The notes beneath the pieces are model-generated. The model worked only from the letters and a program-made list of their open reading frames with translations. It was not told where the DNA came from and did no database searches. Made by a program: the position numbers and the translations under genes. From Actinomycetes bacterium (GTDB lineage Bacteria; Actinomycetota; Acidimicrobiia; Acidimicrobiales; JAJYXR01), in the NCBI GenBank assembly GCA_021801525.1, contig JAJYXW010000056.1, positions 1 through 46,684 on the forward strand: a DNA stretch of 46,684 bases. The letters run 5' to 3'. Below, piece by piece: positions 27,601 to 31,217 of this stretch. The stretch's first letter is position 1. Each line of letters opens with the position of its first letter.

Positions 27601-27951
27601 TTGGGCACCGCGACGAGCTGCTTCGGTGTCGTCGAGTTCTTCGACGAGCCCCGCGGCCTGGGGGTCGTCAGGTGCGCGTCGGGGGAGGAGCTTCCGTTCC
27701 ATTGCACCGCGGTTGCAGACGGCAGCCGGCGGATCGAGCCCGGGACCGAGGTGCACTTCGGGATCGGCGCGGGCCATCTCGGGCGCTACGAGGCGGTGCA
27801 GCTCGTGCCGGTTCGTGCCGCTCTCGGCAGCGAGTCTCCATGCGTCGCTCAGCGCTCAGCCGAGCCACCCCACAACGTCCACGATGACATCGGCGGTGCC
27901 CGTGTTGTTGGTGAAGGCCGCGTAGCCGCTCCCGAGAGGCAGGACGGCTAG
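27601..27951 (+). CDS. cold-shock-domain-like protein
   Basis: The first ~70 residues fit the cold-shock / OB fold of a family found in actinobacteria: GVVEFFDEPRGLGVVR, LPFHCTAVADGSRRI, and GTEVHFGIGAGHLGRYEAVQL. This fold binds single-stranded nucleic acid, but the RNA-binding aromatic motifs of classic CspA are only partly kept, so the role is uncertain. The start is a TTG at 27601, ten bases after the hisG stop, with a GAGG 9-10 nt upstream. The last ~45 residues after LVPV are not conserved in character and overlap the end of the convergent secreted GH43-type gene by 96 bp, so the true C-terminus may be chance read-through into antisense sequence. Confidence 0.75.
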   Translation: MGTATSCFGVVEFFDEPRGLGVVRCASGEELPFHCTAVADGSRRIEPGTEVHFGIGAGHLGRYEAVQLVPVRAALGSESPCVAQRSAEPPHNVHDDIGGARVVGEGRVAAPERQDG

Positions 27952-30354
27952 GTTGGCGACGGTCTGGCCCGCCTGCCAGTTGAGGTCGGAGGAGCTGGGC
28001 TCGTTGGTGAACGCAGGGTACGCGACGAGGAAGGAACCGCCGCCGCCGGTATCCGTGACGGTCACGTTGGCGACGACTGCGACAGCCCCCGAAGAGGGCA
28101 CCCCGCCGTTGCCGGCCACCTTCACGTAGAGGGTCTCGCCGCCGGGCGTTAGGGTGTGGCCCGTGCACTGGTCGGAGACGCCCGACGCGCTGGAGGGCCG
28201 CGTGTCGCAGATCCTGGCCGGGGAGAGGGGATGGAACATCGCTCCGGAGCCCCCCGGGGCGCTGAAATAGCCCTCGGCGTCCACGACGATGCCCGGGTTC
28301 CCGCCGGAGGAGTAGACGGAGACGTCACCACCCTGCCCTACTTGGACGATCACGCGGTTGGCGACGATCTGACCGGGCCGGAAGTTAACATTGGACGCCG
28401 TCGGGGGGCTCATGCCGGTGGGGTAGACCGTGAGGAAGCCGCCCGACGTGGGGTCCACTGCCGTCACGTTCAGGACCACGGCCCCCACGCCCGAGGAGGG
28501 GACCTGGCCGTTTCCCTCGACGGGAACCGTGAGGCTCTGCCCCGGGCCGGGTGTCTTTCCGGTGCAGGGAGTCGTGTAGCCGGTGCCCTCCCGGGTGTCG
28601 CACAACCGCTGCGGAGACAAGGAGTCGTACAGTCCGGCCCCGGCCTGGGCGTCGGCGGTCACGTATCCCTCCACGTCCACGACGATGTTCGTGGGCGTGG
28701 AGGAGCCGTTGTACACGGCGACCTCGCCTTGCGCGCTACCCGTCGAGAGTGGGACGCTCACCAGAGCCGGGACGATCCCGCCCGGGCCGAAGCTGACGTC
28801 AGAGGCCAAGGGGCGAGCGCTGCCCGCCGGGTACACGGTGAGGTAGCCGCCGGCGGCCGACGAGATGGCGGTGACGTCGAGCATCGCCGAGAGTGCCCCC
28901 GAAGACGGCACGCCGCCTTTGCCGCCTACCTGGACTTCGAGGGTAGAGCAGGCCCCGATGGCTTGCCCGGCGTAGGGCTCGCCGGAGCCCGCCCGGGTGT
29001 CAGCTATGCGCTCGGGTGGGAGCGCGACGTAGGAGCCCGACGGCACGGGCGAGGGGGCGTTGCCGTAGTCGAAAGCGTCGTTGCAGCCGATGGAGGATCC
29101 CGACGAGCCGTTCGGCCCCTGCACGGTCACGGCCACTTGCCCTGCCTGGGCCTGCGGCGGGGTCGCGGTGATCTCCGTATCGGAGACGACGCTGAAGCTC
29201 GCCGGAGCAGAGCCGAACTGGACTGCGGTGGCGCCGGTGAAGCCTGCGCCGGTGACGATGACGCTGCCCCCGCCGGAAAGGGTCCCCGAGGACGGCGACA
29301 CGCTCGACACGACCGGCGGGGCAGGGGGCGGCGGAGCCGTGCCGAACCCGAGGCCCCCGACGTAGAGCTGGCGTGCGCCCCCGCAGGAGTACGAGGTGCA
29401 GCCGGATGTCCAGGCGGCGTAGGCGATCCTCCAGTTGCCCTGCAGATCCCTGAAGACATCGGCACCGCCCGGCCCGGCGACATCGCCGTAGGAGCTCAGG
29501 ATAGGACCCTCCTGCGGTTGGGTGCAGGGGCCGGCCGGGCCCGAGCAGACGGCGTAACCCTCGGCGTACCCGGACGAGTCCCAGAGTCCCCCGGAGAAGA
29601 ACAGGTAGTAGGTGCCGCCGGCCAGCACCATGTCGGGGTTCTCGACCGTGGTCTCCCAGGGGTGGGAGACCGTGTTCTGGTCGAGGATGTCCACCGGCGG
29701 GGCTGCGAGGGCCGTGCCAGCGGCGTCGAGGGGCGCCGACCAGATGTGGGCGGGCTGGGAGGAAGATCCGTCGTTGGACTTCCACACGAGCCACGGCTGA
29801 CCGGCTGGCGTTACGAACGGGCTCGGGTCGATGGACCCGCCGTAGCCCGTCTGGCACACGAGAGGCCCGGAGGAGCTGTCGGCAAAGGGCCCCTGGGGCG
29901 TGGGTGAGGTTGCGACCGAGATGCAGTAGTGACCTCCCTCTGACGGGTCGGCTGCGTCGTAGAACATCACGTAGCTCCCTGCCCAGAAGAACACACCGGG
30001 GGAGGTCTCCGAGCCGGCCTTCTGCCAGGACGGGGGATTGGGCAGGGCGCTGGAGCCGTAGCTCTTCCCGGTGATGGTGTGCCAGCCTGCTGTGGGGCTC
30101 ACCGAGGTGAGGACGCCGAGGTTGTTACCCCAGGTGGTGCCAGTCGTGTACGCGTAGTACTGCGATCCGGCGACGAGGACGGTGGGATCGGGAGCGTCGG
30201 CGGCAAAAGCGGGCGAGGGCATCTCGGCCACCTGGGGGACAGCCGGCGTCGCCCCGCCGGCGCCGGGCGCGAGCGGCGCTAGCCCGGCGGATGCCGCCAG
30301 CGAGGCGAGAGCGGCAGCCAGGGCTGTCCTTGGAAACGGGGACGGGAGCGCCAC
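27856..30354 (-). CDS. secreted GH43-type glycosidase with IPT/TIG domain and three C-terminal modules
   Basis: Numbered from the GTG at 30354, the ~832-residue protein starts with a signal peptide of Ala/Leu repeats (ALAAALASLAASAGLAPLAP). A five-bladed propeller like family 43 glycoside hydrolases follows: Asp56 in APDPTV (base), Asp176 in GGSIDPSPF, and Glu238 in TTVENPDMV (acid). Such enzymes trim arabinose or xylose side chains, but the substrate here is unknown. Next come an IPT/TIG domain (VVSSVSPSSGTLSGGGSVI) and three ~125-130 residue modules, each with a DTR segment, GxVPSSG and VVDxxGY. The last ends IVDVVGWLG at the stop. The frame stays open to a GTG at 30444 inside the inverted-repeat element, so the start is uncertain; neither has a good ribosome binding site. 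Confidence 0.82.
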   Translation of the reverse strand: MALPSPFPRTALAAALASLAASAGLAPLAPGAGGATPAVPQVAEMPSPAFAADAPDPTVLVAGSQYYAYTTGTTWGNNLGVLTSVSPTAGWHTITGKSYGSSALPNPPSWQKAGSETSPGVFFWAGSYVMFYDAADPSEGGHYCISVATSPTPQGPFADSSSGPLVCQTGYGGSIDPSPFVTPAGQPWLVWKSNDGSSSQPAHIWSAPLDAAGTALAAPPVDILDQNTVSHPWETTVENPDMVLAGGTYYLFFSGGLWDSSGYAEGYAVCSGPAGPCTQPQEGPILSSYGDVAGPGGADVFRDLQGNWRIAYAAWTSGCTSYSCGGARQLYVGGLGFGTAPPPPAPPVVSSVSPSSGTLSGGGSVIVTGAGFTGATAVQFGSAPASFSVVSDTEITATPPQAQAGQVAVTVQGPNGSSGSSIGCNDAFDYGNAPSPVPSGSYVALPPERIADTRAGSGEPYAGQAIGACSTLEVQVGGKGGVPSSGALSAMLDVTAISSAAGGYLTVYPAGSARPLASDVSFGPGGIVPALVSVPLSTGSAQGEVAVYNGSSTPTNIVVDVEGYVTADAQAGAGLYDSLSPQRLCDTREGTGYTTPCTGKTPGPGQSLTVPVEGNGQVPSSGVGAVVLNVTAVDPTSGGFLTVYPTGMSPPTASNVNFRPGQIVANRVIVQVGQGGDVSVYSSGGNPGIVVDAEGYFSAPGGSGAMFHPLSPARICDTRPSSASGVSDQCTGHTLTPGGETLYVKVAGNGGVPSSGAVAVVANVTVTDTGGGGSFLVAYPAFTNEPSSSDLNWQAGQTVANLAVLPLGSGYAAFTNNTGTADVIVDVVGWLG

Positions 30355-30364
30355 GCCGGGGAGG

Positions 30365-30463
30365 CTAGTGGTCCGTCTCGCAAATAGCGTGACGTTGGCC
30401 GCCGAGCCAGGGGCGTCATCTGGCCGGCGGGAACCCAAGATCACTTGCGAGACGGACCACTAG
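30365..30463. mobile_element. 99-bp MITE-like element with 19-bp inverted ends
   Basis: Positions 30365-30383 (CTAGTGGTCCGTCTCGCAA) are the exact reverse complement of 30445-30463, with 61 bp between. Both ends carry CTAG, the same tetranucleotide that flanks the insertion sequence at 669-2603, but the inner repeat is different, so it is not a deletion derivative of that element. It has no coding capacity of its own. It sits 10 bp before the GTG of the GH43-type gene, so insertion here would have replaced the promoter or start region of that gene. A plain regulatory palindrome is the alternative. Confidence 0.6.
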
Positions 30464-30510
30464 CTCGCGCGCAGAGCGTCGCCCTGCGTTATCGGCCTGG
30501 CCACCGGTCT

Positions 30511-31023
30511 CTAGGCTGTTGCGGGAGCCTCGCCCCCGGTGCTGTCCCCGCCGGTGCTCGGCGAGGTGCTCATCTGCACGAAAGCAAGGCGGACCTGTGC
30601 CAGGGCGTCCTTCAGGGTCGGCCCGGCTTCGCCGAGCCGGGATGCCACACCTTCGACGAGCGCGCCCATGGCGTCGGTGGCAAGGCGCGCCTCCTCCAGG
30701 TTCGGGGGTGTGGCGGCGAGGTGGATGGCAGCCAGCTCGAACAGTCCGTATGCGTGGTTGGCAACGACAACCGACGCAGGAGTAGCGAGGATCTCCTGGC
30801 GCAGCTTCTCGAGCTTGGCGCGATCCGCCTCCGTGGGCGCCGCCGCGTCCGGAGCTCGGCCTGGCGTGGGCCGCCGTGCGGATGCCTCTTGCGGGTGCTC
30901 GGATCCGGGCGCATGCCGGGGAGCCTGCGCAGAAGCTGGCCGGTCGGTAGCGCGCTCGGCAGATGGTCGTTGCGGGTCCCGGCGTATCGGAACCTCGCCG
31001 TCTGGTGTCCACAGGGTGCTCAC
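30511..31023 (-). CDS. DUF1844-type protein
   Basis: A 170-residue protein. After a Pro/Ala/Arg-rich, probably disordered N-terminal half, residues ~85-150 match the DUF1844 family, which I recall as often encoded beside infC in actinobacteria: ILATPASVVVANHAYGLFEL, AAIHLAATPPNLEEARLATD, AMGALVEGVASRLGE and KDALAQVRLAFVQM. The family is short and helical, and its function is unknown. The GTG at 31023 was chosen because TACGCT lies 7 nt upstream (leaderless type); the open frame reaches further back but has no family similarity there. It is divergent from infC. The C-terminal tail is Ser/Thr/Gly-rich. Confidence 0.72.
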   Translation of the reverse strand: MSTLWTPDGEVPIRRDPQRPSAERATDRPASAQAPRHAPGSEHPQEASARRPTPGRAPDAAAPTEADRAKLEKLRQEILATPASVVVANHAYGLFELAAIHLAATPPNLEEARLATDAMGALVEGVASRLGEAGPTLKDALAQVRLAFVQMSTSPSTGGDSTGGEAPATA

Positions 31024-31217
31024 GGCTGATAGCGTATGCGCTGGAAGAAGACTCCAAGCGGGGTAGCGCCGCCATTGCACCCCCACCCGGCCACGATTTG
31101 CAGGAATGTGCGCCGGGTTGCAGCAGGCCTCGAGTCCGAGGCGCTGGACGGCGGCCATCCCGCCGGGATCATTGGCACCGGGGAGGTTCCGGGCCAGGCA
31201 CATGGGAGGTACGCCGC
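31024..31217 (+). other. divergent spacer and 5' leader of infC
   Basis: A 194-bp stretch between the DUF1844-type gene and infC. It must hold the promoters for both directions. On the minus strand TACGCT is visible next to the GTG at 31023. On the plus strand I see no clear promoter; a strong GGGAGG at 31204-31209 serves infC. Confidence 0.5.

Follow-up and report, generated by a model that had tools for sequence, protein, structure and literature searches.

The window analysed here, a stretch of 46,684 nucleotides (contig JAJYXW010000056.1) from an Actinomycetes bacterium of the order Acidimicrobiales, contains a 99-bp palindromic element next to the start of a GH43 gene. With good probability, this element is a shortened representative of a family of palindromic transposable elements that are non-autonomous. 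The family is a class of mobile DNA hairpins that is widespread in actinobacteria and whose larger relatives often lie exactly at gene ends; the window copy is an internally shortened member of this family, for which a conserved fold is characteristic, a relationship that is not visible from the window alone. Copies are dispersed in the genome, carry IS630-like ends, are bordered by a TA duplication and are absent from the corresponding locus of a relative, and a core with one fold recurs behind many different ends.

The window element and its dispersed copies

Including its CTAG flanks, the element spans 30365-30463, its plus strand being the one on which the long-form relatives fold best. 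The two copies of the putative TA target duplication (30366-30367, within CTAG, and 30461-30462) are assigned from the sequence and from the variation of ends in the family. They enclose the left terminal inverted repeat GTGGTCCGTCTCGCAA (30368-30383, plus strand) and the right one (30445-30460, minus strand), which complements it perfectly. The arms of the whole palindrome (30364-30383 and 30445-30464) comprise 20 nt each, are 100% complementary and are spaced by 61 nt; among inverted repeats with arms within 150 nt this is the longest perfect one of the window, and the maximum in Markov-1 resamples (n=30) is 15. CTAG is present at both element ends and scarce otherwise, with 33 occurrences in the window compared to about 101 in dinucleotide shuffles. 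The remaining core is one predicted stem-loop (30399-30430, plus strand) that contains the 19-nt unit GCCAGGGGCGTCATCTGGC once (30406-30424, plus strand), and the covariance model R1 described below matches at 30396-30432 with an E value of 7e-5.

The genome is available as a draft of 3.38 Mb in 193 contigs that is 93% complete. Searching it with the 99-bp element returned 41 matches, self-matches and split halves included. The 19-nt end, allowing for up to 3 mismatches, also gave 41 matches, compared to 3 for a reversed control pattern, so that the further copies of this end for which an earlier note on the window had proposed to search do exist. The places listed number 31 (30 excised ones plus the window copy) and represent at most 29 distinct loci, two of them duplicating others via overlapping contig ends (C193 with C129 and C37 with C67). 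Among the excised places are 13 long copies (165-168 bp) and two short copies of 98 bp; the other 15 are fragments, pieces at contig edges or isolated ends, and chance matches may be included among these. Once duplicates are removed, 12 distinct long loci remain, and three short copies of 98-99 bp are obtained with that of the window. Two end subfamilies, GTGGTCCGTCTCGCAA and GTGCTCCGTCCCGGAA, are found in the genome.

In the long forms GCCAGGGGCGTCATCTGGC occurs twice, with starts 69 nt apart, and the window copy is 69 bp shorter. Its single unit indicates that the segment with the conserved loop and the apical hairpin is missing. The window copy, which has no internal loop, probably arose by losing the segment between two 19-nt units or descends from a copy that had done so. 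Short, non-coding sequences of 99 and 165-168 bp with terminal inverted repeats and dispersed genomic copies conform to the definition of miniature inverted-repeat transposable elements (MITEs). The earlier note had described a perfect inverted-repeat element of 99 bp and read it as a MITE; its arms of 19-20 bp are indeed perfect, and this reading is supported by the dispersed copies, by IS630-type ends on complete elements elsewhere and by an element-free locus in the related genome G001.

A folded core behind changing ends

At the DNA level, 10 of 59 genomes searched, including that of the window, gave matches, and in the clear cases at the order level (G005, G026, G040 and G046) the core lies inside elements with strongly different ends. 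Of 298 genomes of the order, 31, distributed over 16 families, contain the core according to the covariance model R1, which was built from eight real sequences. A second model, R2, identified it in 85 of 246 genomes from the genus to which G625 belongs and, at E<=1e-5, in 21 of 396 genomes of the phylum, 14 of which belong to other classes. This genus is taken to be Streptomyces because plasmid records matched by the G625 element are from Streptomyces (36) and Embleya (2). As 10-16 candidates were scored per genome, the numbers of copies are minimum values. No match was obtained in a phage search with one long element or in a plasmid search with the G565 element, and the comparison of 4,227 Rfam families with the window stretch and 16 loci yielded no element match near the gathering score, the best hits being of miRNA type (E values of 0.37 and 0.012).

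Over their full length, the long forms are predicted to adopt a rod-like hairpin structure that includes a purine-rich internal loop, and this conserved single-strand fold is well supported. In the alignments A5, A6 and A7, changes on both sides are observed for 28, 33 and 34 of the 35 pairs, respectively, and 91.4, 90.6 and 90.6% of cells are paired, compared to 73.3, 70.0 and 58.8% for shuffled and 29.5-55.2, at most 49.7 and at most 50.5% for slid arrangements, exact figures that lean towards the model because the alignments were fitted to it. Such pairing could also be kept by mutation, if template switching copies one arm onto the other and thereby mimics covariation, an explanation that is improbable. 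The whole element is quasi-palindromic and its arms change together, as this process would have it. However, template switching predicts perfect pairs, whereas G-U pairs persist on one strand (123 G-U compared to 21 A-C cells in model-fitted rows) and unpaired motifs are conserved among 152 distinct cores (CAAGG in 131 and ACGCVG in 142 of them). The better fold was that of the forward strand in 30 of 30 loci. One possible reading of the loop in the window subfamily is a series of tandem G.A pairs framed by single G-C pairs; the loop in G046 contains GGCC/GGCC where others show GGAC/GGAC. A hammerhead-like reading of the GGACGA motif was unsupported and was dropped.

Element size is maintained, with a TA-to-TA length of 163-167 in 65 of the 86 elements with assigned ends. 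Automatic end finding returned no ends for 48 of 124 hits and miscut the G119 copies at 136 bp, and the hits were then listed for reading by eye. Over 378 pairs among 28 elements, mean identity is 0.67 in the core, 0.48 in the arms and 0.38 in shuffled arms. The genome G119 holds two end types, whose cores agree at 82 of 106 positions. Its second end type, AGGGCCCGTGTCATAATTA, forms 24 closed pairs with 46 of 48 ends exact, namely one copy of 93 bp, 17 of 162-163 bp and 6 of 207 bp, and these copies duplicate a 3-bp TNA in 10 of 10 cases of one set and 11 of 12 of another (TAA/TTA at locus L193). As this duplication is TNA and not TA, these copies are not filed as IS630. The sizes and duplications in G119 indicate that short, long and extra-long forms coexist and that cores resembling each other occur with target duplications of two kinds. 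Overall, the core recurs behind very different ends and both kinds of duplication while the total length stays similar.

Several variants accompany these forms. An added hairpin between the 19-nt units is seen in the extra-long element at L068 (1234-1446) and in the 207-bp copies of G119. Two differently ended elements are nested or fused on opposite strands in L173 (1121-1371) and L175 (1285-1536), loci that share flanks, and two neighbouring cores per locus are present in L284 and L266 (genomes G393 and G502). Weaker core matches with E values of 5e-8 to 9e-7 in L272, L275 and L286 (genomes G007 and G133) have no recognisable transposon ends and begin at the stop of a gene.

Transposon ends, stop codons and a proposed mode of spread

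Among GTDB contigs carrying the same ends as the window element, 24 stretches were found, two of which are complete insertion sequences (ISs). The first, in a Solirubrobacterales metagenome-assembled genome (L051), measures 1,186 bp and its two ends differ at 2 of 15 positions, while the second, in a Chloroflexi metagenome-assembled genome (L057), measures 1,132 bp with 4 of 15 differences. Both transposases belong to the IS630 family (NF033545, E values of 1e-56 and 4e-79). The bases outside the TA vary independently at the two ends of an element (TTAG/CTAG, CTAG/CTAA, ATAG/CTAG), while the inner G and C are mostly kept; as judged from these ends, the target duplication is TA with a preference for CTAG and is IS630-like. 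An exception is C75 with CTCG at both ends, for which a 4-bp duplication of CTAG was considered and rejected, since the outer bases of other copies differ between their ends. A preference of IS630 for CTAG was reportedly described by Tenzen and Ohtsubo in 1991. Duplication of TA is a property of the IS630/Tc1/mariner group in the available part of its description (PMC2170065), from which the present family differs in that the element has no transposase and one G119 end type duplicates TNA. Searches for an IS630 transposase were positive above the cut-off in 6 of 30 host genomes. The IS630 end in G046 differs from the end of the resident element by 1 mismatch in 12, and that in G239, located beside CTAG, perhaps matches the local element with 2 mismatches. 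For two Streptomyces-type ends, 16 plasmid records were matched and no annotated transposase was present in the four regions inspected. Altogether, the mobility of the family is well supported.

The same IS630-type ends are also borne by the Bifidobacterium contigs L053, L056, L059 and L066, with candidate elements of 124 and 231 bp and other interiors in L059 and L066. In L043 (1140-1165) and L042 (3072-3106), lone element ends supply the first codons of one frame, which we take to be enoyl-CoA hydratase-like, and the last codons of another.

A second regularity concerns the insertion sites. With duplicate loci removed, 108 of 296 element edges are no more than 6 nt away from a stop codon that ends an open frame of at least 150 codons, compared to 1.3% of 2,667 random points. 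At least one such edge is present in 85 of 148 elements and both edges qualify in 23; the stop codons are TAG (84), TGA (15) and TAA (9). The count relies on open frames alone, 22 of 173 elements having been dropped for short flanks and another 3 because their loci were duplicates. For CTAG sites at other positions of these loci, coincidence with stops is seen in 17 of 85 cases, so that elements are enriched (odds ratio 5.4, p 2.6e-8), a comparison that slightly favours the elements, as their edges were placed at a fixed distance from the core with a tolerance of 6 nt and the CTAG control had none. An approximate gene caller based on GC content at third codon positions gave 57 of 135 elements touching a stop, and in published annotation a gene stop overlaps an element edge in three of 15 plasmid loci (one of the 15 being unannotated and these three having been checked at base level).

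One explanation for this distribution is that the copies are host-useful hairpins at gene ends, surviving because they terminate or insulate transcripts between genes. The frequent stop-codon edges, the elements enclosed by two stops and the annotated examples on Streptomyces plasmids are in line with it. We nevertheless regard it as unlikely: stops occur at the 5' edge in 55 and at the 3' edge in 53 cases, so that a strand-specific fold shows no preferred orientation towards the gene, and a conserved T-run after the hairpin was not seen by eye. Without an orientation bias, a role in cis within the mRNA of the neighbouring gene is disfavoured, while the restriction of the fold to one strand favours a function of the RNA or single strand of the element itself.

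A mode of spread can be proposed in which a resident or since lost transposase moved the element in trans, the inverted repeats being its cutting sites. On insertion into C-TA-G, the TA would be copied, and the leading G of the element would restore a TAG stop; as the element begins with G and rebuilds the codon, a low cost could explain its survival, and insertions at gene ends would persist. The rod, the purine-rich loop and the apical stem-loop may act for the element itself, be it in the form of RNA of the element's strand or of a protein-bound hairpin of single-stranded DNA, and the fold would not serve as an orientation-dependent signal for a neighbouring gene. It is tentatively hypothesized that the conserved unit is the folded core, a selfish RNA or single-stranded DNA hairpin that is ancient in Actinomycetota, retains its fold and size, exchanges its ends between transposase families and persists largely in rebuilt stops, its loop binding a host or transposon protein to raise its spread; this is possible but not the outcome we would expect with any confidence.

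A number of observations weigh against the main explanation given at the outset. Arms of different end types are partly related (0.48 compared to 0.38 when shuffled, and 0.55 in G119). Alignments A5-A8 were fitted to the model and their hits selected with it, a bias towards structure and G-U pairs, and L055 and L065, oriented as assigned, show no better fold of the forward strand. Among the GTDB loci with window-type ends, L061, L068 and L052 are the only R1 matches at E<=0.001. Several elements share the ends and have interiors unmatched by R1, and of these L045, L055 and L063 also share the length of 168 bp. The core is dispensable for spread, as there are at least three short forms of 99 bp in G040 and one among 24 copies in G119. 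Regarding the full IS with the same ends for which the earlier note had proposed to search, similar ends are found on IS630 elements of other genomes, and the draft genome of the window contains no complete IS630 (no match for PF13546 and PF13358, three for NF033545, all below the cut-off); with such weak matches only, either the genome has no mobiliser or the assembly does not include it. Ten IS630 loci were compared in six hosts; only that of G046 and perhaps that of G239 match the local element end, and matches with 2 mismatches also arise by chance in these loci. The IS630 ends in G005 and G142 are unlike the local element ends, and no IS630 was paired with the G119 end. Finally, no transcript, excision or movement has been observed.

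Bacterial MITEs are usually viewed as dead deletion derivatives of ISs, in which the ends matter and the middles drift. In this family the middle is conserved and the ends turn over, and selection acting on how a mobile element folds as a nucleic acid thereby becomes testable. The family also offers a reason for the accumulation of insertions at stop codons and, with Streptomyces as the probable genus, occurs in a laboratory-tractable host.

Related systems and the GH43 locus

No description of the family was found in the open-access literature searched, mainly by titles and abstracts, although Streptomyces motifs without a name may be listed in the supplement to PMC11109978. Three known systems can be compared, as far as the available parts of their descriptions allow. 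Correia/NEMIS elements of Neisseria have forms of about 107 and 155 bp with an internal difference of 50 bp, TA ends and long RNA stem-loops (PMC2229807). The present family resembles them in having two size forms, here 99 and 168 bp, and differs in its core with a conserved loop found across classes of a phylum and behind many ends; sequences were compared via Rfam, which gave no match. RUP of Streptococcus pneumoniae, with a proposed mobilisation by IS630-Spn1, is likewise short and non-coding with IS630-type ends and insertion at TA, whereas a conserved fold or a family with multiple ends is not reported for RUP in the available part of that source (PMC2229807). Mobile/repeat sequence candidates (MRSC) are marked by inconsistent orientation to genes, and MRSC-65-2 shares with the present family a long covarying stem, many copies and possible action as DNA (PMC11109978). 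The two are set apart by description, as MRSC-65-2 has a conserved UYCCGG repeat (PMC11109978) while, in the present family, TYCCGG occurs once in 3 of 152 cores and twice in none.

In the window, the insertion separates two genes on the minus strand. The adjoining GH43 gene (27856-30354; Pfam GH43, E value of 2e-31) lies in an open frame of 862 aa (27856-30444) whose first codon, a GTG, is within the element. A more likely start, judging from the signal-peptide-like stretch that follows it, is the GTG at 30354-30352, 10 nt outside the element; the earlier note had correctly placed the element 10 bp from the likely start with the gene frame running through it. The upstream gene (30511-31203) is conserved, with a match in 19 of 21 genomes including its own, and has no Pfam match; a suspected resemblance to DUF1844 was not borne out by Pfam. 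The element follows its stop at a distance of 47 nt, so that the window copy is not itself at a stop.

The locus was also compared in relatives, as the earlier note had suggested. In G001, a genome of the same family, a GH43 gene (70% amino acid identity over 417 residues) directly adjoins a homologue of the upstream gene, the element is absent and the intergenic gap read by eye is 11 nt, the flanks being too diverged for a base-by-base comparison of the empty site. A fixed regulatory palindrome of the GH43 gene would fit the distance of 10 nt to the likely start; such a palindrome should be single-copy and conserved in place, whereas the element is multicopy and missing beside the same gene in G001, and this reading was rejected as highly improbable. 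The element beside GH43 is most likely a near-neutral insertion parting two genes that are 11 nt apart in G001.

The window additionally holds a complete IS of the IS1634 family at 665-2607, with a 567-aa transposase (NF033559, E value of 1.5e-91), the ends CGGAACCTTCCGGGCTA and CTAG flanks. The earlier note had pointed to a full IS sharing the CTAG flank with the element; this IS exists and has different ends, and the shared CTAG, found here in an IS1634-family element, establishes no link. That the 99-bp element is a remnant of it, as the CTAG flanks on both might suggest, was rejected and has almost no likelihood, given that the ends differ and that the IS belongs to another family than the IS630 elements bearing such ends. 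The end of the contig (about 46600-46684) is presumably the start of a 16S rRNA gene.
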